A DNA stretch of 64,000 bases from Rudaea sp. 3F27F6 (GTDB taxonomy: Bacteria > Pseudomonadota > Gammaproteobacteria > Xanthomonadales > Rhodanobacteraceae). The notes under the pieces were generated by a model that was given only the letters and a program-made list of their open reading frames with translations, did no database searches and was not told the DNA's origin. The DNA lies in the NCBI RefSeq assembly GCF_005503555.1, contig NZ_SCNG01000001.1, positions 1,488,001-1,552,000 on the forward strand, read 5' to 3'. Positions 29,850 through 41,561 of this stretch are shown piece by piece. A program made the translations under genes and the position numbers. Position 1 is the stretch's first letter, and each line of letters begins with the position of its first letter.

Positions 29850-29857
29850 TTGGGGCC

Positions 29858-29910
29858 GGGATTCGGGATTCGGGATTCGGGATTCGGGATTCGGGATTCG
29901 GGATTCGGGA
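29858..29910 (+). repeat. Tandem 7-bp repeat, GGGATTC x 7.6
   Basis: Seven exact, contiguous copies of GGGATTC (29858-29906) plus GGGA, starting 8 bp after the kinase stop. It uses the same unit as the arms of the 14320-14485 element. A pure array is prone to slippage and copy number probably varies. Confidence 0.95.
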
Positions 29911-30114: not shown

Positions 30115-31980
30115 TCAGCGCCGCCGTCCTGGATCCTGCAGCGCCTTTTCGACCGCCGCACGCGTCATCGGGTGATAGCCCGGTTTCGCCTCGGCATAGA
30201 TCTTCTCGGCCAGCGCCTTGCCCTGCGCGGTCTTGGCGAGGCTCGCATATAGCGGCACGACGAGGATGCGGCGGCCGATGCGCAGCATGTGCTCGCGCAT
30301 CGCCGGATACGCCGCCTGGTAATCGCTGCCGATCGCGAGGCGATACCAGCGGAACGCGATCTCGGCATTGCGTGTACCGGTCAGGTGATACGCATCGTCC
30401 AAGCCCTTCATCTGCGCCGCGCTGAGCTGCGGCGGCAGTTGATCGAGGAAATACTGCCATTCCTGCGTGCGCCACGACTTCGCGCCGAGGCCGTTCGCGT
30501 CGATCTTGCCGGCGACGAACTGTTCGCGCAGCTTGTCTTGCGCAGCAAACGCACTCGACGCGGGCAGCGGCGCATTGGCCGGAATGCCCGGCTGGTGCAG
30601 CCACGCGTCGACTTCAGCCATGCTCACCTTGCCCGGATACTTGTCGAGCAGATTCGCTTTCAAGTAGCCGACGAACTGGTCGGTGGTGATGCTCTGGAAG
30701 GCGAAGTGGTCGAAGTAGCCGCGCAGGAAGGCATCGAAGTTCTCGCGGCCGAATTTTTCTTCGAGATACTGCAGAAACCACGATCCCTTGATGTACGGCA
30801 CGTCGCTCAGCGAATCGTCTGCGTCCTTGCCGGTCAGGTCGGGCACGAGCAGTTGCTCGCCGGGCTTGGCTGTCTTGAATTCTTTTCTCAGCTCGTTCGC
30901 GGCGACGAGGAATTCCTCGTCCTTCTGCTGCTTGCCGTAGACCGCCCCGACGATACGCCCCTGCACGTACGTGGTGAAACCTTCATTGAGCCAGACGTGC
31001 TTCCACGCCGCATTCGTCACCAGATTGCCCGACCACGAATGCGCCAGTTCGTGCGCGATCACGCTGACCAGCGACTTGTCACCGGCGATGATCGTCGGCG
31101 TGGCAAAGGTCAGGCGCGGATTCTCCATGCCGCCGAACGGGAACGACGGCGGCAGCACGAGGATGTCGTAGCGATCCCAGCGGTACGGACCGTAAAGCTT
31201 TTCCGTCGTGACGATCATCTTCTCGATGTCGTCGAATTCCTTCGCCGCGGCGGCGACCGTTTCTGGCTCCGCGTAGACCGCACTGCGCGGGCCGATCTCC
31301 TTGACCGCGATGTCGCCGATCGCGAGCGCGAGCAGGTACGACGGAATCTTCTGCGGCATCGCGAAACGGAAATCACCGTCGAGCGTATGCTTAGCGTCGT
31401 TGTTTGCACTCATCACCGCGCGCAGGTCCTTCGGCGTCGTGATATGCGCCGTGTAGGAGAAGCGCACCTGCGGCGTGTCCTGCAGCGGAATCCAGCTGCG
31501 CCCGGCGATCGACTCGGACTGCGAATAGACGAACGGATATTTCTTGCCCGCGGTCTGGCTCGGATCGAGCCATTGCAGGCCGGCCGCGTCGGGGCTCGTC
31601 GAATAGGCGATGCGCACCTTCGCGCTTTGCGCGGGCAGGGCGATGCGCAGCGCCGAACCGAGCAACGGATCGACCTTGTCGAGCGAGAATTTCGCCGCGT
31701 CCCATTTGCCCGCGCCGCCTTCGGCCTCGATCTTGTCGATCTTCAGGCCGCTGGTGTCGAGCACGAGTTCGTGCGCGCCTTTGTCGACCCATTCGAGACT
31801 CAGGATCGCGTTGCCGGACAGCACGTGCTTCTCAAACGATACGGCCAAATCCAGATCGAGCGCCGTGACCCGCACCTTGTCCGGCTGCGCATAGGAATGC
31901 GGATCGGTTTCTGCGTGGACGGAACTCATAGCGGAGACGGACATTGCGGCGGCAAGGAGAAGACGAGGAAGAAAATTCAT
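30115..31980 (-). CDS. Secreted M1-family aminopeptidase
   Basis: A 621-residue zinc metallopeptidase from ATG 31980, which begins a signal peptide (NFLPRLLLAAAMSVSAMSSVHA). The substrate motif GGMENP is at 283-288. The zinc site is H310-E-L-A-H314 with Glu333 (LNEG). The C-terminal helical domain ends near 615. Length and domain order match the leukotriene A4 hydrolase/aminopeptidase-like branch. It should remove N-terminal residues from peptides in the periplasm or outside. It is in line with the S10 carboxypeptidase upstream (79 bp), so both may be used together in peptide scavenging. Confidence 0.95.
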   Translation of the reverse strand: MNFLPRLLLAAAMSVSAMSSVHAETDPHSYAQPDKVRVTALDLDLAVSFEKHVLSGNAILSLEWVDKGAHELVLDTSGLKIDKIEAEGGAGKWDAAKFSLDKVDPLLGSALRIALPAQSAKVRIAYSTSPDAAGLQWLDPSQTAGKKYPFVYSQSESIAGRSWIPLQDTPQVRFSYTAHITTPKDLRAVMSANNDAKHTLDGDFRFAMPQKIPSYLLALAIGDIAVKEIGPRSAVYAEPETVAAAAKEFDDIEKMIVTTEKLYGPYRWDRYDILVLPPSFPFGGMENPRLTFATPTIIAGDKSLVSVIAHELAHSWSGNLVTNAAWKHVWLNEGFTTYVQGRIVGAVYGKQQKDEEFLVAANELRKEFKTAKPGEQLLVPDLTGKDADDSLSDVPYIKGSWFLQYLEEKFGRENFDAFLRGYFDHFAFQSITTDQFVGYLKANLLDKYPGKVSMAEVDAWLHQPGIPANAPLPASSAFAAQDKLREQFVAGKIDANGLGAKSWRTQEWQYFLDQLPPQLSAAQMKGLDDAYHLTGTRNAEIAFRWYRLAIGSDYQAAYPAMREHMLRIGRRILVVPLYASLAKTAQGKALAEKIYAEAKPGYHPMTRAAVEKALQDPGRRR

Positions 31981-32059
31981 GGCGATTCCGATTCTGCGCA
32001 CAACGCTCTGAAACACTATCGCCGATCCGCCTGCGCGAAACGGCGTCATTGGCGATACG

Positions 32060-33637
32060 TCAGCGCGTCGCCGCGCTGTCGTAGAACTTCACGAGGTCGG
32101 CCTTCATCTGCTTCAACGCATCGAGATTGAGGTAGACCATGTGTCCCGACGGATAATAGGCGAAGCTCAGGTTCTTGCGCAGGCCCGGATCGATGTCGAG
32201 GTGGGCGAGATCGTATTCGGTGGCGAAGAACGGCGTGGCGAGGTCGTACCAGCCGTTCGCCGAAAGCACCTTGAGATGCGGATTGGTGCGCATCGCTTCG
32301 GACAGGTCGCCGACCATCGCCGGCAACTGCACCTTGCGCGACGAACCCGGAATCGCGTGCCGCCAGTCCCACTCGCCGATCGCCGCGCCGGCGTTCATGC
32401 GATACGGCACGTCGCTCGTGTATTTCAGATCCCGCGCCAGATAGTCGTTGATCGCCGAGAAGAACGCGCCGCTGATCGCCGTGCTCGACGGATCGAACTC
32501 GGGCGACTCGCCGGCCGCGTCGGCGTCGATACCCTCGAAACGGCCGTCGTAGCGGCCGAGCGTGCGGCGCTGGTCGCGCAGCAGTTCCTTGCGGAATCGC
32601 GGCTGACTGACGCGCAGGTTGGCGTCCTTCAGATAGGCGACCGACAGACCCGTGTAGCGGCTCAGTTTCTGCGCGATGGCGTCGCGCTCGGCCGCGCCGA
32701 GATCTTGGCCCTTGGCCAGAGCCACCGAATATTCACCGCGTGCAAAGTTGCGCGCTTCGTCGAGGAACGGCTCCATCGCCGCGGGCCGGTTGACGATCTT
32801 ATTGTGATACCAGGCGATCGCCGCGTAGGTTGGCAGCAGATTGACGTAATCGTTGTCGAGCCCCGGAATACGCGAGCCGTAGTTGAGGATCGACGACAAC
32901 AGCACGACACCGTTGAGCGACACGCCGCGGTTTTCGAGATAGCGCGCGAGGCCCGCCGAACGCGGCGTGCCGTAGGATTCGCCGAACAGAAATTTCGGCG
33001 AGTTCCAGCGCTGGTTGACCGTCAGGTAGCGAATGATGAAACGGCCGAACGCTTCGATATCCTGGTCCGTGCCCCAGAAGCGCTTGCTCGGATTTTCGTC
33101 CTTGTCCGCGCCGGGTTTGCCGTCTTTCTCTTTGAGCAGACCCTTTGAATAGCCGGTGCCGATCGCATCGATAAAAACCAGGTCACTCTTGTCGAGCAGA
33201 CTGTCTGCGTTCGCCACGAGTTGATACGGCGCCGGCGGCGTCGCATCGGGGCTCGTCGTCGCCACGCGCACCGGACCGAACGATCCCATGTGCAGCCACA
33301 GGCTCGCCGAACCGGGACCGCCGTTGTAGAAGAACGTGACCGGCCGCTTGGCCGCGTCTTTGCCGTCGCCGCTCGTGTAGGCGACGTAGAACACGCTCGC
33401 GTCCGGAGCATCCTTGTCGTCGCGAATCGTCAGCGTGCCTGCGGTCGCCTTGTACGCGTAACTGCGTCCGCCGATGCTGACGCTGTGGCTCGTGACGATC
33501 GCTTTCTCGGCAGCCGCATCGGCCTTCTCCTTGGCCGGCTTCGCCTCCGACTTGGCCGATTCTTCGTGCTCGGCTGCAAAGGTGTTTGCGCCGACGACGA
33601 CAAAAGCGAGCAGAGAAACGAGAGCGAATTTGCGCAT
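32060..33637 (-). CDS. Exported S10 serine carboxypeptidase-like peptidase
   Basis: A 525-residue protein with a signal peptide (about 1-21) and then a Lys/Glu/Ala-rich linker (25-48). The alpha/beta-hydrolase core has the oxyanion motif YNGGPGSAS (about 104-112), Ser221 in FGESYGT, Asp465 in NGWYDL and His499 in SGHMVY, the complete S10 triad. Family members release C-terminal residues at acid pH. Xanthomonads and relatives carry several such exported enzymes. It lies directly upstream of the M1 aminopeptidase. Confidence 0.93.
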   Translation of the reverse strand: MRKFALVSLLAFVVVGANTFAAEHEESAKSEAKPAKEKADAAAEKAIVTSHSVSIGGRSYAYKATAGTLTIRDDKDAPDASVFYVAYTSGDGKDAAKRPVTFFYNGGPGSASLWLHMGSFGPVRVATTSPDATPPAPYQLVANADSLLDKSDLVFIDAIGTGYSKGLLKEKDGKPGADKDENPSKRFWGTDQDIEAFGRFIIRYLTVNQRWNSPKFLFGESYGTPRSAGLARYLENRGVSLNGVVLLSSILNYGSRIPGLDNDYVNLLPTYAAIAWYHNKIVNRPAAMEPFLDEARNFARGEYSVALAKGQDLGAAERDAIAQKLSRYTGLSVAYLKDANLRVSQPRFRKELLRDQRRTLGRYDGRFEGIDADAAGESPEFDPSSTAISGAFFSAINDYLARDLKYTSDVPYRMNAGAAIGEWDWRHAIPGSSRKVQLPAMVGDLSEAMRTNPHLKVLSANGWYDLATPFFATEYDLAHLDIDPGLRKNLSFAYYPSGHMVYLNLDALKQMKADLVKFYDSAATR

Positions 33638-33793: not shown

Positions 33794-34378
33794 CTACAAC
33801 CCCTGCGCTATCTGCTGACGTCGTGCGAAGGTTTCTCGCTCCAACTCGATGCGCAAACGCTGTTCCTCGAAATAATCAGCGATCTTTCCGAGCATCCATC
33901 CGACCAATGCGAAGGCCGCCACGGCCGGCGCCGCATATGGCAGCAACGGCGTGATGGCAGGTTGTTGGGAATTGGCCGGCCCCAAAGAAACGAAGAGTAC
34001 GAAACCGAGTGCGCCGAGCACGATGATCCAAGCTGCCGCACCGATCAGATTGGCAGCCAACTCGAGGACTTTCAGCGGCAACAGGAACCAATTCGCATGG
34101 CGCACGCTGAAAGGCGGATTCGGCGCGTGCAGCGTGATCATTGCATCGATGATCGGCGCAGTTGGAAGCCCGTGCTGTCTCTGCATGACCATTACTTCGG
34201 CTTTTATCTTCACCACCTCCCATTCGTCCCTGCGCCAACGCGAGGGACGGAAATCAATGAACGTTCGCAGCAAAGCCCCAACGAGAACAACCAGCGATAC
34301 GCTGATCGCCAGCCACCTCGGACCGGACTGCGAGAACAGCGTCTCCAATGTGCGTGCAATGGTAGCGGCGTCTTGCAT
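33794..34378 (-). CDS. Membrane protein at the end of the CHAT cluster
   Basis: A 194-residue protein with three predicted membrane helices (about 22-40, 107-135 and 146-170) and a charged helical C-terminus (ADYFEEQRLRIELERETFARRQQ). Between helices 1 and 2 is a soluble segment of about 65 residues. I recognise no family. It follows the 255-residue exported protein by 12 bp on the same strand, so it is probably the last gene of that transcript. A pore or anchor role is possible, but nothing in the sequence proves one. Confidence 0.65.
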   Translation of the reverse strand: MQDAATIARTLETLFSQSGPRWLAISVSLVVLVGALLRTFIDFRPSRWRRDEWEVVKIKAEVMVMQRQHGLPTAPIIDAMITLHAPNPPFSVRHANWFLLPLKVLELAANLIGAAAWIIVLGALGFVLFVSLGPANSQQPAITPLLPYAAPAVAAFALVGWMLGKIADYFEEQRLRIELERETFARRQQIAQGL

Positions 34379-34390
34379 GGGATGGCTCCG

Positions 34391-35158
34391 TCAAAACAGC
34401 GAACGCGAAACGATGAGGAACACACTTTTTCCGGACGCCGTCTTGTAGCGAATCTGCGATTCGCCCGACGGAAGAGGCTGGTTCGCCTGCAGTCCGTCGC
34501 CCAGGCGCTTGCTCTGACTTTCGAGCATGATCCCGATTCCGAGATTCCAGCCCATGAGGCTGTGTTGCTGTTCGCCGTCCGCGGTGAAGCTCTTCGTGCC
34601 AGCTCCTACCGGGTCGCTCCAACCGAACATCCAGCCTATGCCGAAGGAAGCCAGCGACGACGAATCCGATCCCGTCTGCACCGACACGAACGGCCCGTTC
34701 GCGAAAGTGCGCGTGTCGTTCGCTGTAGAACCCGAATACAGATAGCGATGCGCTTCGAAGGCGATCAACGGTCGCGTCGTACGCGAGTCGTCCACGCGCA
34801 CGATTCCGTTCACGACCGAGGCGGAATCGATTGGATGTGTGCCCAAGGCCTTGGAGACACCGATAGCAACGCCGAAATTGCTGCCCAAGAAGCTCTGCAC
34901 GTCCTTCATGCGGCTTCCGGTGCTGTCCATGTTATTTCCATCGGGGGCAGCTGTCTCCAACTCAACGAGATCGAATCGTTTGTCTTGTATTTTCTTTTTC
35001 GCTTCACGCGACGCTTTTTCACACGCATTGATGTATTGCTGAATATTGCTCGGGCTCAATGCGGCATTCGGATCGCAACTCTGCGCTCGGACGGGGACCG
35101 ATACCGCAACAAACGACCAAACCAGGACATGGAAAAAGATTGTGTTGAATACGCGCAT
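34391..35158 (-). CDS. Exported beta-rich protein, possible outer-membrane barrel
   Basis: A 255-residue protein with a signal peptide (about 1-25, cut after VRA). A helical Lys-rich segment (about 37-60) is followed by alternating strands such as FGVAIGVSKAL, GPFVSVQTG, ASFGIGWMFGW, GWNLGIGIML and a final SVFLIVSRSLF. A C-terminal Phe after an amphipathic strand is typical of outer-membrane barrels, so an outer-membrane site is inferred. Family unknown. It lies 136 bp downstream of the CHAT gene and 12 bp before the small membrane protein. Confidence 0.6.
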   Translation of the reverse strand: MRVFNTIFFHVLVWSFVAVSVPVRAQSCDPNAALSPSNIQQYINACEKASREAKKKIQDKRFDLVELETAAPDGNNMDSTGSRMKDVQSFLGSNFGVAIGVSKALGTHPIDSASVVNGIVRVDDSRTTRPLIAFEAHRYLYSGSTANDTRTFANGPFVSVQTGSDSSSLASFGIGWMFGWSDPVGAGTKSFTADGEQQHSLMGWNLGIGIMLESQSKRLGDGLQANQPLPSGESQIRYKTASGKSVFLIVSRSLF

Positions 35159-35294
35159 AGAGACCTCCAGGCGGACCGCGGAATGTCGTGTTCAAGGACC
35201 GGATGCGGAAAGCCGGTCCCGAACTGCCGGAGTCTCTGGAGCGAAATTTGTCTCAGCGGGGAATCGGCGTCGGCCTGTTTTGCACACGACGTCG

Positions 35295-38200
35295 TCAGGG
35301 CACGCGGCGCACTGCAGGCGGTTTCGCTGGCAATTCCTCGGTGACGACATCGAGGCGTTCGATCGCCTGCATGCCAGCCCAGAAGAACGGATGCGCAAAG
35401 GCGCGGCTGTGGGCCAGGTGCAGTTGCGCGCGGCGGAGTGCCGCGGCCGCGTCGCCCGGATTGTCGCGCAGCGCCGAGTAGAACGCAGGCACCCAAAGCA
35501 CCGTGGCCGAGTCGCTGACCGGCCACAACGAAGCGACCACGCGGCGTGCACCTGCGCGCGCGACCGCTGAAGCGAAACTCAAGTTGCCGTTGACCGCCGT
35601 ACCGGAGTCGCCGAGCTGGCAGGCATTGAGCACAACCAGATCGGCACGCACGCCGGCATCGAGGATATCGAGCCAACTCAGGAACGACGGCATCGTCTCG
35701 CCCGCACTCGGCTCGAGCCAGACGCCTGCGTAGCCGATGCGCGGCGGTTGTGCCATGCCGTGCGCGGCGATATGCACGAATGCGTCGCGGTCGTGCAGGG
35801 AATCGAACACCGCGTCGCGGGTGGCGCTCATATTCGCGTCGATATGCATGCCGGCAGGAACGAGTGCATCCCGTATCTGCTGCGCTTCGACGGCGGCATT
35901 CGTGAGATTCGGCAGTGAGATCTCGCCGGCCTTCAGTTGCGCGGCAGCGAGCACATGCACGCTCACGGACGAGCGCTTCGCGGCGACACTTTCGCGGGCG
36001 CCGAGGACACGCGCGAGAACCGTTGTCGTCGATTCGATCAGCGGCGCATCGCGGCCGGGCCAGCGCAACATCGCCCATGGAATGCCGTCGGAAAGCTCGT
36101 CGGCCACTATCCAGAGCCGCCGTGGCGGCGCGCCGGGAACTTCGTGCAACAACGCATCGGACAATCCGCCCGCTGCTGCCTCGGCAGCAGTCAGCGAGCT
36201 GGTGGGCACGCGAAGCAATTCGCGCAATGTGGCCGTCTTTGCGCGTACCTCGTCGGCGTCGGCCGCTGGAATCAGCGCAGCCGAGCTGCGCGTCACCCAA
36301 AGCAACGCGCCGCGCGTGCCGCCGTCGAGATACGCCGCAAGCACATCGCCGTCGGACAGCGCGGCCTGCAGATGCGTCAACGTCAAAGCGGGCGATTGCC
36401 GAACGGCGACTGCCATGCCGTTCGTGGAATTGTTTTCGCTCGTCAGCAGCGCGAGCATACTTCGATGCGTTGCCGATTCCGCGGCCGCCCTCGCTCCCGG
36501 CTCCGTTGCGAGCAGTTCGGCGGCGACCGCACGGTCGAAAACCGAGCCGTCGCCTCGCGGCGTGCCGGCATCGCGATCGACCGCGATATCGCCCTGACCC
36601 AGCACCAGCCACGGCGCGATCGCTTCGACCGATGCTGTGGGCAATGGCGTAATCGGGCTCCCGATCAAATAACCCAGCGCCTTTCTCCGCAGCGGCACGG
36701 CGAGACGCTCGATGGTTTGGCCGAGCACGCCGTTGCCGGCGCGGCCGGCGAGAAGGCGTATTTGCTCTTTTGCGCCGGTCAGCGCCATCAAGCCTGCTTC
36801 GACGTCGCCGCTGCGCAGCCTGATCTCTGCGTCGACGTCGGCCAGCGCAACCTGATCGGCGAGCGGAAGCGGTCTGCTCCACGCTCGCTCCGCGGCGGAT
36901 CGAGCCTCGACGAGATCGCCTCTTTTCAGCGCAAGCATCGCCGTCAAGATTTGCCGCTGCCCTTCGTACAACGGCGGCAACTCACGAATTTCCTGCACCG
37001 TAGCAGCCGCCGCGCTATGGCTTTGCCGCTGCGCCGCAAGGCGCAAACGCGCGAGGCGCGTCCAATCCCGAGCGGGCGATGCGCCTTCGCTCGCGTAGCG
37101 GTCTTCCGCGAGACCGTACCAGAACAGCGCCGAATCGAAGTGCTGCGTTTGTGCTTCCAGATCGGCAAACACGCGTGCGCGCAACGCAAGCGAGTGTTGC
37201 GACGGCAAAAATGCATTGACTTCGGAAAGCGCGCCGTAGGCTTCGTACCAGGCGCCTATCTGCCCGAACAATATTGCTTCGTTTAAGCGCGAAGACGCAC
37301 GCCAGAACAACGCCCCCGATCCCGCCTGCTCGAATTCGCGGTTGGCCAGATCGATGTGCCGTATCGACGCGACGACGTCGCCCGCCTGCTGGTCGAGCAC
37401 TGCCAACAGAAGATGCAGCCGTCCGCGCGTCATCACGGCATTCGGACCCGCGGTAAGTGCGAGTGCGGACGATGCCAGCGCGCGCGCCGACGCGAGCTTG
37501 CCCTGTACGCGCTGCAGCGTCGCCAGGTTCCGCATCACGCTGGCCGATTCGTTGCGTTCGTCGAGCGTCGCAAGTGCGGCGAGCGCGCGGTTGTAGCATC
37601 GTTCGGCATCGGCATATTTTCCCGAACGATGCAAAACGAGACATCGAGCGTTGAGCAGGCGCGCGTCGAAATAAGTCGATGGAGCCGCGGCGCCGGCAAA
37701 GCGTTCGGTGTCGCGCAACACCGCGGCGTCGTCACCTCCCTCGTAGAATGCCTCGACCCGGCCGACGCGCGCCGCCGCAGCATAGTTCGGCTCTGCGGCA
37801 AGAATCCAGCCACGTTCGCTTTCGGCGAATGCTTCGGCGGCGCGTCTGCCTTGATTCGCGGCCAAGAAGGTCATGGCCCGATAGTGGTCGATCAGCGCGT
37901 TCGCGTGCGGATCCGTAGCAGAGCGCTGCAGTTCATCGAGCGCGGGCAGCAAGCGCAGAACGCCAGCGGCATCTTCGGGAGAATCGATCTGCGCATCGAT
38001 TCCCGCCAGTTTCGTCAACCAGTCCAATTGAGCTCGATTACGGGCGGCGAGATCGCAGTGCGCGGTCAACGCAACCGCGCCGGCCGCCTCGTTCGGCTCT
38101 CCGCGGCGCAACGCGATCTTCTGCCCGGGATGCGTATCGAGCCAATAGCGTCCGTAGCGGCGAGGCTGCGAAATGCGGATTGCCGACGACTCCGCACCGG

Positions 38201-38411
38201 GCAGAACGAGCAATTGACCGATTTCTTCGATTTCCAGCCATCCGCCGGCACTCTCGAAAACGCGCTCACCATCCTTGGACGGCAGTGCAAACACCTCCCG
38301 CTGCGCGACGCAATCGATTCGCACCATATCGGCAATCGCGGGAAAGCACGGTAAGCTTGCCAAGAGCAGAGCCCATGATGACAGCGCCGCGAACCGCCGC
38401 ACGACGCGCAC
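35295..38411 (-). CDS. Exported TPR-CHAT caspase-like protease
   Basis: A 1038-residue protein starting at GTG 38411. A Sec signal peptide covers about 1-27 (WALLLASLPCFPAIA). Residues 28-110 are beta-rich, and about 150-520 are helical TPR-like repeats (for example YADAERCYNRALAALATLDE). The C-terminal CHAT domain (about 690-1020) has the caspase-type dyad His884 in VHIAAHG and Cys931 in VLNACQLG, plus the ASLWPVSD block. CHAT proteases are clan CD cysteine peptidases related to separase. The intact dyad and TPR sensor suggest a regulated protease in the periplasm. It starts 7 bp after the serine protease gene and belongs to the sigma-factor operon. Confidence 0.92.
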   Translation of the reverse strand: MRVVRRFAALSSWALLLASLPCFPAIADMVRIDCVAQREVFALPSKDGERVFESAGGWLEIEEIGQLLVLPGAESSAIRISQPRRYGRYWLDTHPGQKIALRRGEPNEAAGAVALTAHCDLAARNRAQLDWLTKLAGIDAQIDSPEDAAGVLRLLPALDELQRSATDPHANALIDHYRAMTFLAANQGRRAAEAFAESERGWILAAEPNYAAAARVGRVEAFYEGGDDAAVLRDTERFAGAAAPSTYFDARLLNARCLVLHRSGKYADAERCYNRALAALATLDERNESASVMRNLATLQRVQGKLASARALASSALALTAGPNAVMTRGRLHLLLAVLDQQAGDVVASIRHIDLANREFEQAGSGALFWRASSRLNEAILFGQIGAWYEAYGALSEVNAFLPSQHSLALRARVFADLEAQTQHFDSALFWYGLAEDRYASEGASPARDWTRLARLRLAAQRQSHSAAAATVQEIRELPPLYEGQRQILTAMLALKRGDLVEARSAAERAWSRPLPLADQVALADVDAEIRLRSGDVEAGLMALTGAKEQIRLLAGRAGNGVLGQTIERLAVPLRRKALGYLIGSPITPLPTASVEAIAPWLVLGQGDIAVDRDAGTPRGDGSVFDRAVAAELLATEPGARAAAESATHRSMLALLTSENNSTNGMAVAVRQSPALTLTHLQAALSDGDVLAAYLDGGTRGALLWVTRSSAALIPAADADEVRAKTATLRELLRVPTSSLTAAEAAAGGLSDALLHEVPGAPPRRLWIVADELSDGIPWAMLRWPGRDAPLIESTTTVLARVLGARESVAAKRSSVSVHVLAAAQLKAGEISLPNLTNAAVEAQQIRDALVPAGMHIDANMSATRDAVFDSLHDRDAFVHIAAHGMAQPPRIGYAGVWLEPSAGETMPSFLSWLDILDAGVRADLVVLNACQLGDSGTAVNGNLSFASAVARAGARRVVASLWPVSDSATVLWVPAFYSALRDNPGDAAAALRRAQLHLAHSRAFAHPFFWAGMQAIERLDVVTEELPAKPPAVRRVP

Positions 38412-38418
38412 ACTGAAC

Positions 38419-39366
38419 TCAGGTATGAAATGTAGGTAACCCGTCTACGCTGCCCAGATATTCCCATGGCAGCGTATAAATCGGGTTTGCCACAGTGAAA
38501 CCTCCTTCCCGGGCCAACACCAGTCCCACAGCGCAATGTGACTGCTGGCCCACGATGACCGCGCCCGAGTCTCCCTGGTGAGCCTGACACTCCTTGAAAA
38601 ACAGTTGCTCGTAGAACATCGTCCACCCCCCGTCATTCCACCTTACTTTTCTCGAACCAACGCCGCCGAACGTCATTGCCGGCGTCACACATCCTGACCC
38701 GGCTCCGATAAAGCGAAACGGCTGGTTCACCTGAAAATCATCGGCACTCCCCAATTTGCTCGGTGGAGACCATTCCAATACTTGATCCAAACCCGTCCCG
38801 CCCACTGGATCTGTCATTTCGATCAAAGCACAATCGAAACGACGCGGGGCATTCACAGAGTCCGGCTCAAATTTAAGCAGCTCACCAATTTTTACATCTT
38901 GGGCTCCGCCATACCGCAAGTACACCTCGGTTCCAGCATAATTTTGGGCTTGGTCACTCGGATAGAGTCCATGGCGGCTACCAATGCCGACGACGCGGTC
39001 ATCCAACTTAAAAATCCACCCCAGAGTGCTGTAAGCCTCCCTGTCTTCGTTTACAGGGTAGATCCCATCGCCCGCCGAACCGGCGAGGAGTTGCAGGTGG
39101 AGAGAGTAATCGCTTCCCGGCATCCTTATAACACCATGAACTTCCATGGCATGTCGAAACCTCTCGCTGCCATCGAACAGCCTCTTATCGATTGGCATGG
39201 CTATCGCTGAATTCGCAGGCAGCAGTTCAGGTATTGCAATGGCACACTGATAACCCTCCGGATCCAAGCGCAGACCTGCAAAACCAGGGTCGTTTCGAAT
39301 TTCGCTCGGTACGGCATTCTCGAGCGCACGGAGCTTGAGCAACAGTTGATCCATAGGCATAGGCAT
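38419..39366 (-). CDS. Trypsin-like serine protease without signal peptide
   Basis: A protein of 315 residues from ATG 39366, preceded by GGAGA at good spacing. A TTG at 39390 overlapping the previous stop would add eight residues. The chymotrypsin-like triad is readable: His132 (GIGSRHGLY), Asp178 (FDCALIEM) and Ser267 (QGDSGAVIV). About 100 N-terminal residues precede the protease fold. No signal peptide or membrane helix is seen, so it looks cytoplasmic, although it is co-transcribed with exported proteins. GC is visibly lower than in flanking housekeeping genes. It may process a partner in the operon; no partner is proven. Confidence 0.8.
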   Translation of the reverse strand: MPMPMDQLLLKLRALENAVPSEIRNDPGFAGLRLDPEGYQCAIAIPELLPANSAIAMPIDKRLFDGSERFRHAMEVHGVIRMPGSDYSLHLQLLAGSAGDGIYPVNEDREAYSTLGWIFKLDDRVVGIGSRHGLYPSDQAQNYAGTEVYLRYGGAQDVKIGELLKFEPDSVNAPRRFDCALIEMTDPVGGTGLDQVLEWSPPSKLGSADDFQVNQPFRFIGAGSGCVTPAMTFGGVGSRKVRWNDGGWTMFYEQLFFKECQAHQGDSGAVIVGQQSHCAVGLVLAREGGFTVANPIYTLPWEYLGSVDGLPTFHT

Positions 39367-39386
39367 GTCTGCTTGTCTCCATTGAT

Positions 39387-40223
39387 TCAAGGATAGTCGT
39401 GGCCACCGCTGCCGGTGCCGTTTTCAGTTTTGCCGCCTATCACATCGCATGTATCGTCGTTGGGCTTGGTCGGCCACTGCCGAAATTGCACGCCATGGTC
39501 CGGGCGATCCCCCGCACATGTAGAGTCTTTAGTAAAAGCTTCGACGTAATAGTAGCGTTCGATACGAGGCACGTTCGGCGTATCTGCCAAGTTCATTTGC
39601 CCTTTTCGATCATCCGCCAGCATGACAAAGTAAGTGACGCCATCACGCTCACCATACCAATAGAATTCACCCTCGTTTCCTCCGGCCTTCAGATCCAGAT
39701 CGAACAGTGAGGGCGTTGTCTCCCATGCGTCGGTATCCACTATGTCGCGCGGGTACAAGGATGAGTTGAATAGACGTAAAGTCAGTTCTTTGTCTTTGGA
39801 GTTTTTCTTTTTCACGATCACGAACCAGTCGTTTTCCTTGATGCCCACGTTCGCGAAAGTGAACGACTGGCTCTTGCAAGAGCCTTCGGACGGGGCGTTC
39901 AAATGGATGATCTTCGCCGATCCCAACTTGCCTTCGGGCGTCATTGTCAACAAAGCTTCCGGCTTCATCATTTTTCGTACATGCATCGGGTCGTGCTGGG
40001 ATTCGCGTAGGCAATACGATTGAGGTCCCACCAAGTCTTGTCCAATGCAATAGAAACCGGATTTGCCGTCTCCGGATTTCCTCGGGTTCGATGGGTCGTT
40101 GCAGGTCACGTTTTTTTGCGGTGCCGCCAGGGCCGAAGAAGATTTGGCGCCATACGCGGAGCAAAAGACCCCCATCAAGGCTATGCAGAAAATGCACAGC
40201 CTCGTGATTTTGAATGCGTTCAT
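39387..40223 (-). CDS. Exported protein of unknown function in the sigma/CHAT operon
   Basis: A 278-residue protein from ATG 40223, with a signal peptide (about 1-26, ITRLCIFCIALMGVFCSAYG). A frame extending to 40607 is rejected. The mature protein has several Cys (NVTCNDP, GFYCIGQD, QSYCLRES, GSCKSQS, STCAGD, DTCDVIGG) that may pair in disulfides, and a beta-rich centre (SFTFANVGIKENDWFVIVKK, EFYWYGERDGVTYFVML). The C-terminus is Gly/Asn-rich. No family is recognised. It lies 2 bp after the anti-sigma-like gene. Base composition is lower in GC, suggesting transfer. Confidence 0.65.
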   Translation of the reverse strand: MNAFKITRLCIFCIALMGVFCSAYGAKSSSALAAPQKNVTCNDPSNPRKSGDGKSGFYCIGQDLVGPQSYCLRESQHDPMHVRKMMKPEALLTMTPEGKLGSAKIIHLNAPSEGSCKSQSFTFANVGIKENDWFVIVKKKNSKDKELTLRLFNSSLYPRDIVDTDAWETTPSLFDLDLKAGGNEGEFYWYGERDGVTYFVMLADDRKGQMNLADTPNVPRIERYYYVEAFTKDSTCAGDRPDHGVQFRQWPTKPNDDTCDVIGGKTENGTGSGGHDYP

Positions 40224-40225
40224 TG

Positions 40226-40957
40226 TCAGCTCCCGTTTTGCGGCGCGGTGCGTACCGGTTGCACGATGCGTTGCGCGCCGAGCGAATAGGTCAATTCGAT
40301 TGGTTGATCCAAACGGTCGGACGAAAGTAAGAAAGTGACGAAACCTTCGTCCGAACGCTGCACCGCTACACTCTTCAAACCTACGATTCTCAGTTGCAGA
40401 TCCTGTGCGCCTTGCGGAACGGCGACCTCCACGAGAACGTAACCGGATCTGTTTTTGCCGCTGTTTGTCACGATTGCGGAGCCGCCCCCTCGCATCGTGC
40501 CGTAGTCTCTGATCAGCACCGGGTCGACGATGAGTGCCGGCCCTCCGCCGTCCGGGGTCGCGATGCGCTGCGCGAGCCATCCTCCGCCCACGCCGAGCAG
40601 GAGGCACGCCGCCATCACTAACCCCTGCCAGCCATGCCGACGCCGCTGCGTTCGGCCGGCATCGACGGGACGAAACATCTCGACGTTGTCACCCGTTGCA
40701 CTCCAAGCCGCCATGCCCGCTCCCGCGTCCGCCAGACCGTCGCGCAAATCCGAATCCGCATCGATCTTCTGCAGCAGTTCGGGTTTGTCTATCACGTACG
40801 CTTCGAACCAAGCCTCCTCCTCGGCGTCCAGTTGCCGATCGAGGTAACGCTCGAGCCAAGCGGCTTCCAGCCACGTGGCCAAACGGCTTGGGCGATTCGC
40901 TTCCGTCACGGGGTGATTCCTGTTGCATGCCCCTGACATTTCATCAGGAGTTGCCAT
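40226..40957 (-). CDS. Membrane anti-sigma-factor-like protein
   Basis: A protein of 243 residues from ATG 40957 (a TTG at 40987 would overlap the sigma gene). The cytoplasmic part (1-108) contains an anti-sigma-like helical segment (LERYLDRQLDAEEEAWFEAYV) but no HxxxCxxC zinc motif. One membrane helix lies at about 110-128 (GLVMAACLLLGVGGGWLA), and a beta-rich segment of about 110 residues follows in the periplasm. This layout, directly after an ECF sigma gene, is that of a membrane anti-sigma factor. Release by proteolysis would be the usual mode; the two protease genes downstream are candidates. Confidence 0.72.
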   Translation of the reverse strand: MATPDEMSGACNRNHPVTEANRPSRLATWLEAAWLERYLDRQLDAEEEAWFEAYVIDKPELLQKIDADSDLRDGLADAGAGMAAWSATGDNVEMFRPVDAGRTQRRRHGWQGLVMAACLLLGVGGGWLAQRIATPDGGGPALIVDPVLIRDYGTMRGGGSAIVTNSGKNRSGYVLVEVAVPQGAQDLQLRIVGLKSVAVQRSDEGFVTFLLSSDRLDQPIELTYSLGAQRIVQPVRTAPQNGS

Positions 40958-40970
40958 GGCGAGATTTGTC

Positions 40971-41561
40971 TCATCGAATATCTCCAACGCTGCTTTCGAT
41001 CAGTTCGCGCAGGCGTTCGCGGGCCCGGAAAATCAGGCGGCGAAAATGGCTCGGATCGATACCGAGATCGGCACAGATTTCGTCTTTATCATGTTCTTCC
41101 AGGTAGAAACGCGCCAATAGCGCGCGATCGCGCGCGACCGGCATTTCGGCGAGCACCGTGCGTACATGCGCAGCAAGCTGCTGGGTACGCAGTCGTTCGG
41201 CTGGATCGCCGTGTTCCGCGGGTAGCTGTTCCAGCACTTCCGCAGCCACGGGCTCGCCGCGACCTGCGCGGCGGCGGTATTCCGCCGTGGTGGAGTGGAC
41301 GATGGCCTGACGCAGATAACCCGGCAGCGCCGCGGGGTCGCGAAGTTCGCGCGCGCGCAGCTTCTCCAGCACATGATGCAAAACGTCTTGGACGAAGTCG
41401 TCGAGCATCGGCTCGTTCGGCCGCGTATGCCGTCGCACCAATACGCGCACTACGTTCTGATATTCGCGCACAAACAGGGTTTCTGCGCTTTTGTCGCCCG
41501 CGCCGATGCGCGCGACGAGATCGCGCGCCGTATCGCCCGTTTGCGGTAGTACGGCCGACAC
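40971..41561 (-). CDS. ECF-type RNA polymerase sigma factor
   Basis: A 196-residue protein starting at GTG 41561 behind a G-rich ribosome site. Region 2 covers about 15-90 (AETLFVREYQNVVRVLVRRH, DDFVQDVLHHVLEKLR) and region 4 about 130-190 (LAEMPVARDRALLARFYLEEHDKDEICADLGIDPSHFRRLIFRARERLRE), with no sigma 1.1 or region 3. It heads the operon containing the anti-sigma-like protein, two proteases and exported proteins, and probably transcribes it. The group within the ECF family is not determined. Confidence 0.9.
   Translation of the reverse strand: MSAVLPQTGDTARDLVARIGAGDKSAETLFVREYQNVVRVLVRRHTRPNEPMLDDFVQDVLHHVLEKLRARELRDPAALPGYLRQAIVHSTTAEYRRRAGRGEPVAAEVLEQLPAEHGDPAERLRTQQLAAHVRTVLAEMPVARDRALLARFYLEEHDKDEICADLGIDPSHFRRLIFRARERLRELIESSVGDIR

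Follow-up and report, generated by a model that had tools for sequence, protein, structure and literature searches.

A conserved sigma factor, membrane anti-sigma factor and exported TPR-CHAT protease in Rudaea: a candidate proteolytic switch outside CRISPR systems

What does a caspase-like protease do beside a sigma factor and a membrane anti-sigma factor when no CRISPR (clustered regularly interspaced short palindromic repeats) system is found nearby? The question is raised by an operon in a 64,000-nucleotide stretch of DNA from Rudaea sp. 3F27F6 (contig NZ_SCNG01000001.1, positions 1,488,001 to 1,552,000; hereafter the window, whose positions we use as coordinates). The operon encodes an extracytoplasmic function (ECF) sigma factor (SIG), a membrane anti-sigma factor (ASIG), a partner protein (SLOT), a putative S1-like serine protease and a TPR-CHAT protease (CHAT). 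Control of sigma factors by caspase-like proteases is documented mainly within CRISPR systems. In Craspase, the TPR-CHAT protease Csx29 cuts Csx30, which lifts the block on an ECF sigma factor (PMC10028731, PMC9729208). Our analysis supports SIG, ASIG and CHAT as one conserved unit, CRISPR-free as far as searched. We tentatively propose, at somewhat less than an even chance, that this unit is a stand-alone regulated-proteolysis switch in which periplasmic CHAT would cut ASIG at a conserved arginine and free the sigma factor.

That the three genes belong together is seen in their linkage across the host order. Searches at E<=1e-40 in 60 relatives, and then in 399 genomes of the order, recovered the CHAT family in 26/399 genomes and 16/98 genera. 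Outside the order, no other genome among the 369 of a class sample had a member, and there was one partial match among the 299 of a phylum sample; none was found on plasmids, and a scan of genome contigs returned two distant Saprospiraceae CHATs and nothing more. The family is essentially confined to the order. SIG and ASIG adjoin CHAT in 20 of 28 family loci (the window, L033, L034, L036-L041, L082-L085, L090 and L092-L097), 16 of which have the one-strand order SIG, ASIG, partner, CHAT. With 55 ECF-type sigma genes in a 5.7 Mb genome, a given gene has a chance of about 8% of lying within 4 kb of one, so the observed adjacency goes beyond chance. SIG-ASIG pairs adjoin more divergent CHATs of the order, too (L140-L142, L144, L145, L150, L152 and L153), and where the parts are unlinked both are retained, as in G049 (CHAT in L035, SIG-ASIG in L134) and G063 (L087 and L135). 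A related CHAT is encoded in 14 of the 15 genomes with a confident ASIG match (E<1e-8), compared with 4 of 20 genomes without one (Fisher p=2e-5); in the sole exception, G059, the ASIG contig ends inside a large open reading frame (ORF; L147) that may be the missing CHAT. The linked sigma/anti-sigma/TPR-CHAT circuit of the original prediction thus holds up against the existence of CHAT clusters away from the pair. Its statement that no CRISPR or gRAMP gene is present stands for what was searched: there are no CRISPR-like direct repeats in the window between 20 and 60 kb and no Cas family match among the operon genes, the remaining genome not having been searched for Cas7-11.

Other arrangements of CHAT occur in the order. 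The CHAT of L035, which has no neighbouring sigma/anti-sigma pair, is directly preceded by tandem repeats of about 110 bp that read as repeated overlapping ORFs (L035:4820-5990; G049:C23). Downstream of two other CHATs, both of a single genus (L043:1918-5279 and L045:10545-11899), the small-protein pairs are different ones; the CHAT of L043 is followed in addition by a sigma-like gene beside a 916-aa protein, which suggests sigma-CHAT partnerships of more than one kind.

The identities first assigned to SIG, ASIG and CHAT were borne out by profile and structure-database searches (Table 1). The SIG family profile (A2) matches solved ECF sigma structures (1or7, 6in7; RpoE, SigH, CnrH), and SIG is 41-49% identical to the sigma neighbours of seven of eight homologous CHATs and 34% identical to the eighth. 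ASIG is kept beside SIG in every SIG-containing relative, and the two genes overlap by 17 bp in the window. It consists of a cytoplasmic domain with a YLDRxL..FE motif, a single hydrophobic transmembrane helix (residues 121-139) and a periplasmic domain of about 115 residues; its family profile matched no chain in the PDB at E<0.1. From this homology and topology we infer that ASIG restrains SIG. In CHAT, His884 and Cys931 are invariant in 10 of 10 full-length relatives (alignment A1), Cys34 and Cys119 are invariant in the N-terminal domain, and the N-terminus resembles a signal peptide, as it does in nearly all family members. The invariant cysteines together with the signal peptide are what would be expected of a periplasmic protein with a disulfide, and CHAT is predicted to be periplasmic with an intact His/Cys dyad. 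Its catalytic-domain profile matches, at the sequence level, the structures of Csx29 (7x8a, E=1e-4) and of a fungal separase (5fc3, E=0.016).

Table 1. Features of the operon, in window coordinates
Feature	Position	Strand	Evidence or remark
Five-gene operon	35295-41561	-	SIG, ASIG, SLOT, S1-like protease, CHAT
SIG, ECF-type RNA polymerase sigma factor, 196 aa	40971..41561	-	TIGR02937 E=1e-16
ASIG, membrane anti-sigma factor, <=253 aa (start uncertain)	40226..40987	-	NF052375 E=2e-6, weak match
Codon of ASIG Arg166, DYGTMR↓GG, predicted CHAT cut site	40490..40492	-	ASIG alignment and motif test; function inferred
ASIG periplasmic peptide with candidate Arg: LIRDYGTMRGGG			
SLOT, exported partner, 278 aa, Gly/acidic C-terminal tail ENGTGSGGHDYP	39387..40223	-	Signal-peptide-like N-terminus, alignment A4
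Putative S1-like serine protease, 323 aa (TTG start) or 315 aa (better-spaced ATG, 39366)	38419..39390	-	GDSGA motif
TPR-CHAT protease, 1038 aa, signal peptide	35295..38411	-	PF12770 E=7e-42, plus TPR
Codon of catalytic His884 (HIAAHG)	35760..35762	-	Invariant in alignments
Codon of catalytic Cys931 (LNACQLG)	35619..35621	-	Invariant in alignments

If CHAT acts on ASIG, the periplasmic half of ASIG offers a candidate site. Arg166 is its single invariant residue, present in 43/43 aligned proteins, in a juxtamembrane context of the form hydrophobic-[D/E]-x-x-R-[G/S/A] that lies 18-34 residues from the transmembrane helix. The P4 position is Asp or Glu in 28/43 proteins against a background of 12%, and P1' is Gly, Ser or Ala in 40/43 against a background of 25%. 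Separases cut at (D/E)xxR, the budding yeast site being SIEVGR (PMC4626109), and the ASIG motif resembles this consensus. An earlier argument, that the invariant Arg proves function, was dropped after a shuffle control and replaced by a leave-one-out motif test, in which the best match of the held-out protein fell at that Arg in 39/43 cases, with p<0.05 in 33/43. We put forward Arg166 as the putative CHAT cleavage site on the strength of this motif.

In the switch that we propose, ASIG at the inner membrane would hold SIG inactive through its cytoplasmic N-terminal domain. A signal in the envelope would be sensed by the TPR/N-terminal part of CHAT or by the partner, and activated CHAT would cut ASIG at [D/E]xxR↓[G/S], about 24 residues beyond the membrane, after which housekeeping intramembrane proteolysis would liberate the sigma factor. 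SIG would most likely transcribe its own operon, yielding more CHAT and more of the tailed partner, together with a second enzyme of interchangeable kind, which may be a variable output or the second step of a proteolytic cascade. We count as support for cleavage of ASIG by CHAT the fact that Csx29, a TPR-CHAT protein structurally related to separase, cuts a sigma-factor inhibitor.

Several observations weigh against such a switch. A simple shuffle control produced a near-invariant column in 34-42 of 43 proteins by alignment alone, so that the cut-site claim rests on the whole motif and not on the invariant Arg. The ASIG of the window itself has Gly, not Asp or Glu, at P4. The Arg motif is also found in ASIGs that have no nearby CHAT gene, and it may therefore be structural. 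In CHAT, the residue matching separase D2151 and Csx29 K670 seemingly lies about 4 positions after the invariant D967 and is not acidic; D967 was at first taken for the Asp of a separase-type P1 pocket, an assignment withdrawn when the spacing was checked, and that Asp could not be placed in the family. No clear ECF promoter motif is common to the regions upstream of 18 sigma genes. SLOT is exported at some loci and cytoplasmic at others, a split that the proposed switch leaves unexplained.

The alternative that survives best reverses the roles, with CHAT and the accessory enzymes as outputs: an ordinary envelope-stress sigma/anti-sigma pair under DegS/RseP-type proteolysis would deploy exported death, defence or predation effectors. 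We regard this as possible but doubtful. In its favour, the accessory enzymes are interchangeable and of damaging kinds (trypsin-like, papain and subtilase proteases, haem peroxidase and a fusion of trypsin to a nonspecific endonuclease), and the cargo of the window is genome-specific and low in GC. A second protease, non-homologous among loci, recurs beside CHAT. Trypsin-like genes are present in the clusters of L036, L041, L084, L087, L092, L093, L145 and L150, a trypsin-like domain is fused to SLOT in L086 and L088 (in L088 by motif alone), a papain-like gene begins 1 bp after CHAT in L034, and a subtilase lies near CHAT in L035. On the CHAT tree, trypsin-bearing loci are scattered over separate groups, and no other member of the clade that contains the window carries a trypsin-like gene, which makes repeated recruitment of the enzyme probable. 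The idea of two proteases in one circuit is supported in that a second protease recurs, although of different fold types. What the output alternative leaves unexplained is the tie of one anti-sigma subfamily to CHAT and not to any accessory enzyme; the Arg motif likewise has no place in it.

The S1-like protein of the window is a putative trypsin-like protease whose first designation as such was not confirmed. It shows a plausible triad (GSRH...FDCALI and GDSGA, judged by eye) and a weak match to a phage protease across the Ser region (E=0.002), but neither Pfam nor NCBIfam gave a match; a single-sequence AlphaFold2 (AF2) model had a predicted local distance difference test (pLDDT) score of 34. 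With no signal peptide, the protein is not expected in the periplasm, contrary to what had been suggested, and searches of 299 further genomes from the order, of plasmids and of viral contigs gave no relatives. The S1-like protease is an accessory, genome-specific component. GC content is 0.536 for its gene and 0.52 for the partner gene, against 0.65 for CHAT, 0.65 for ubiE and 0.643 for the window, and these low-GC genes look like replaceable cargo. Across loci, SLOT lacks a signal peptide in 7 of 8 that carry a trypsin-like gene versus 3 of 18 that do not (p=0.001, signal peptides assigned by hydropathy and a few start sites being uncertain); the window is the exception.

Among the accessory genes, that of L150 (L150:1-1893; G195:C14) lies directly upstream of CHAT in a SIG-ASIG-CHAT locus and encodes a fusion protein, in which a trypsin-like domain (PF13365, E=6e-22) is joined to an endonuclease of the non-specific DNA/RNA type (PF01223, E=1e-27). 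Genes for animal-type haem peroxidases (PF03098) are found within or beside two other such loci (L050:12384-13664 and L041:12555-13946). The recurring accessory enzymes as a whole would be compatible with an output in defence or cell death. A phage- or damage-sensing role, part of the original prediction, is not supported: PADLOC gave at this locus just a weak SAVED_CHAT match (E=7e-7) across the CHAT domain, without a SAVED domain.

A second alternative makes SLOT, not ASIG, the substrate of CHAT, with its Gly/acidic tail as a recognition or inhibitory peptide. Loss of the tail would switch the partner on, or set it free from CHAT or from the S1 protease, comparable to the activation of bacterial gasdermins by proteases. 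A small, highly divergent SLOT gene occupies the space between ASIG and CHAT in nearly every locus, abutting CHAT at most of them, and although identity to the window copy is just 14-22% (alignment A4) the tail persists (ENGTGSGGHDYP, KQTDTGTGNEPPRRP, NQDDEGSGEEP and PPDDGHGTGSDGGQ are examples). A GxG within the 14 C-terminal residues is present in 21/30 SLOT proteins, against 33/348 of the remaining proteins predicted at these loci (p=2e-13). The fusions of SLOT to a trypsin-like domain in L086 and L088 point the same way. However, several loci combine a SLOT lacking a signal peptide with a CHAT that has one, which would place the two in different compartments, and SLOT shows no gasdermin-like or pore-forming similarity. 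Its AF2 model (pLDDT 60) is rich in beta structure and ends in a disordered tail; neither a PDB fold match to the model nor a sequence match was found. On balance we judge this alternative quite unlikely. In L037 (L037:1985-3417; G058:C106) two divergent SLOT genes stand in tandem between ASIG and CHAT.

That all seven same-strand ORFs first noted at this locus make one circuit, with both proteases periplasmic, is very improbable: the genes do share the minus strand and short gaps, but the searched genomes contain no relatives of ORFs 6 and 7 or of the S1-like gene, whose product is without a signal peptide. The first five genes are separated, as originally described, by gaps of -17, +2, -4 and +7 bp, with 136 bp between CHAT and ORF 6; ORFs 6 and 7 (255 and 194 aa) have no relatives among 59 related genomes. 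The observation holds for five genes, and membership of ORFs 6 and 7 is not supported. A scan for promoter and terminator consensus sequences gave matches no commoner than those in shuffles. The operon is flanked upstream by ubiE and downstream by S10 and M1 peptidase genes. The latter two, at 30115-33637, encode an adjacent pair of exported proteins, an M1/leukotriene-A4-hydrolase-like aminopeptidase and an S10 carboxypeptidase-like protein, that are probably unrelated to the operon. A perfect short tandem repeat of CGGGATT lies at 29857-29910.

A broader proposal can be built on the switch: an envelope circuit akin to separase and free of CRISPR, in which an exported, (D/E)xxR-specific TPR-CHAT would serve a membrane anti-sigma factor as its dedicated site-1 protease, the sigma factor would deploy an interchangeable second protease or nuclease in a two-protease cascade encoded by one operon, and Craspase would have captured a pre-existing sigma/inhibitor/CHAT circuit, not invented one. 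We consider this rather unlikely as a whole. If true, a chromosomal, membrane-spanning circuit of this kind would be a plausible evolutionary source of the Craspase output arm, and what exported bacterial CHAT proteases do would become directly testable through a single point mutation each in the anti-sigma factor and CHAT. A full-text search of the open-licence literature found no published description of the SIG-ASIG-SLOT-CHAT set.

Among known systems, those built around EACC2 and caspase-like proteases similarly bring a caspase-like protease, an ECF sigma factor, a TPR protein and variable effector domains, including trypsin-like ones, into one neighbourhood (Kaur et al. 2021, PMC8195603), but they carry TRADD-N/EACC2 domains, have no anti-sigma factor mentioned and do not involve an exported TPR-CHAT. 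Separase shares a TPR-like helical region joined to a caspase-like domain (clan CD), distant homology of the catalytic domain and the (D/E)xxR consensus, although it is eukaryotic and nuclear and acts on cohesin. The DegS-RseA-RpoE pathway has in common a single-pass membrane anti-sigma factor and a predicted periplasmic cut near the membrane; here, in contrast, the candidate site-1 protease is an operon-encoded TPR-CHAT of clan CD and not a PDZ serine protease, and ASIG gave no sequence match to RseA within the PDB. In the type III CRISPR-associated CalpL/CalpT/CalpS system, the Lon protease CalpL cuts the anti-sigma factor CalpT and the ECF sigma factor is CalpS (PMC11417357), but CalpL has a SAVED domain and a different protease fold, is cytoplasmic and is activated by cyclic tetra-adenylate (cA4). 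With the type III-E Craspase module the operon shares a TPR-CHAT with a His/Cys dyad, an adjacent ECF sigma factor and a sigma inhibitor encoded together with it. It differs in that neither a CRISPR array (sought between 20 and 60 kb of the window) nor a Cas gene was found nearby, that CHAT is exported and accompanied by an extra partner and accessory proteases, and that the inhibitor, ASIG, is short, crosses the membrane once and has no sequence match to Csx30, and is not a soluble inhibitor of the Csx30 type or Csx31. On the proposed reading the operon would work like the output arm of Craspase, but it is not Craspase.

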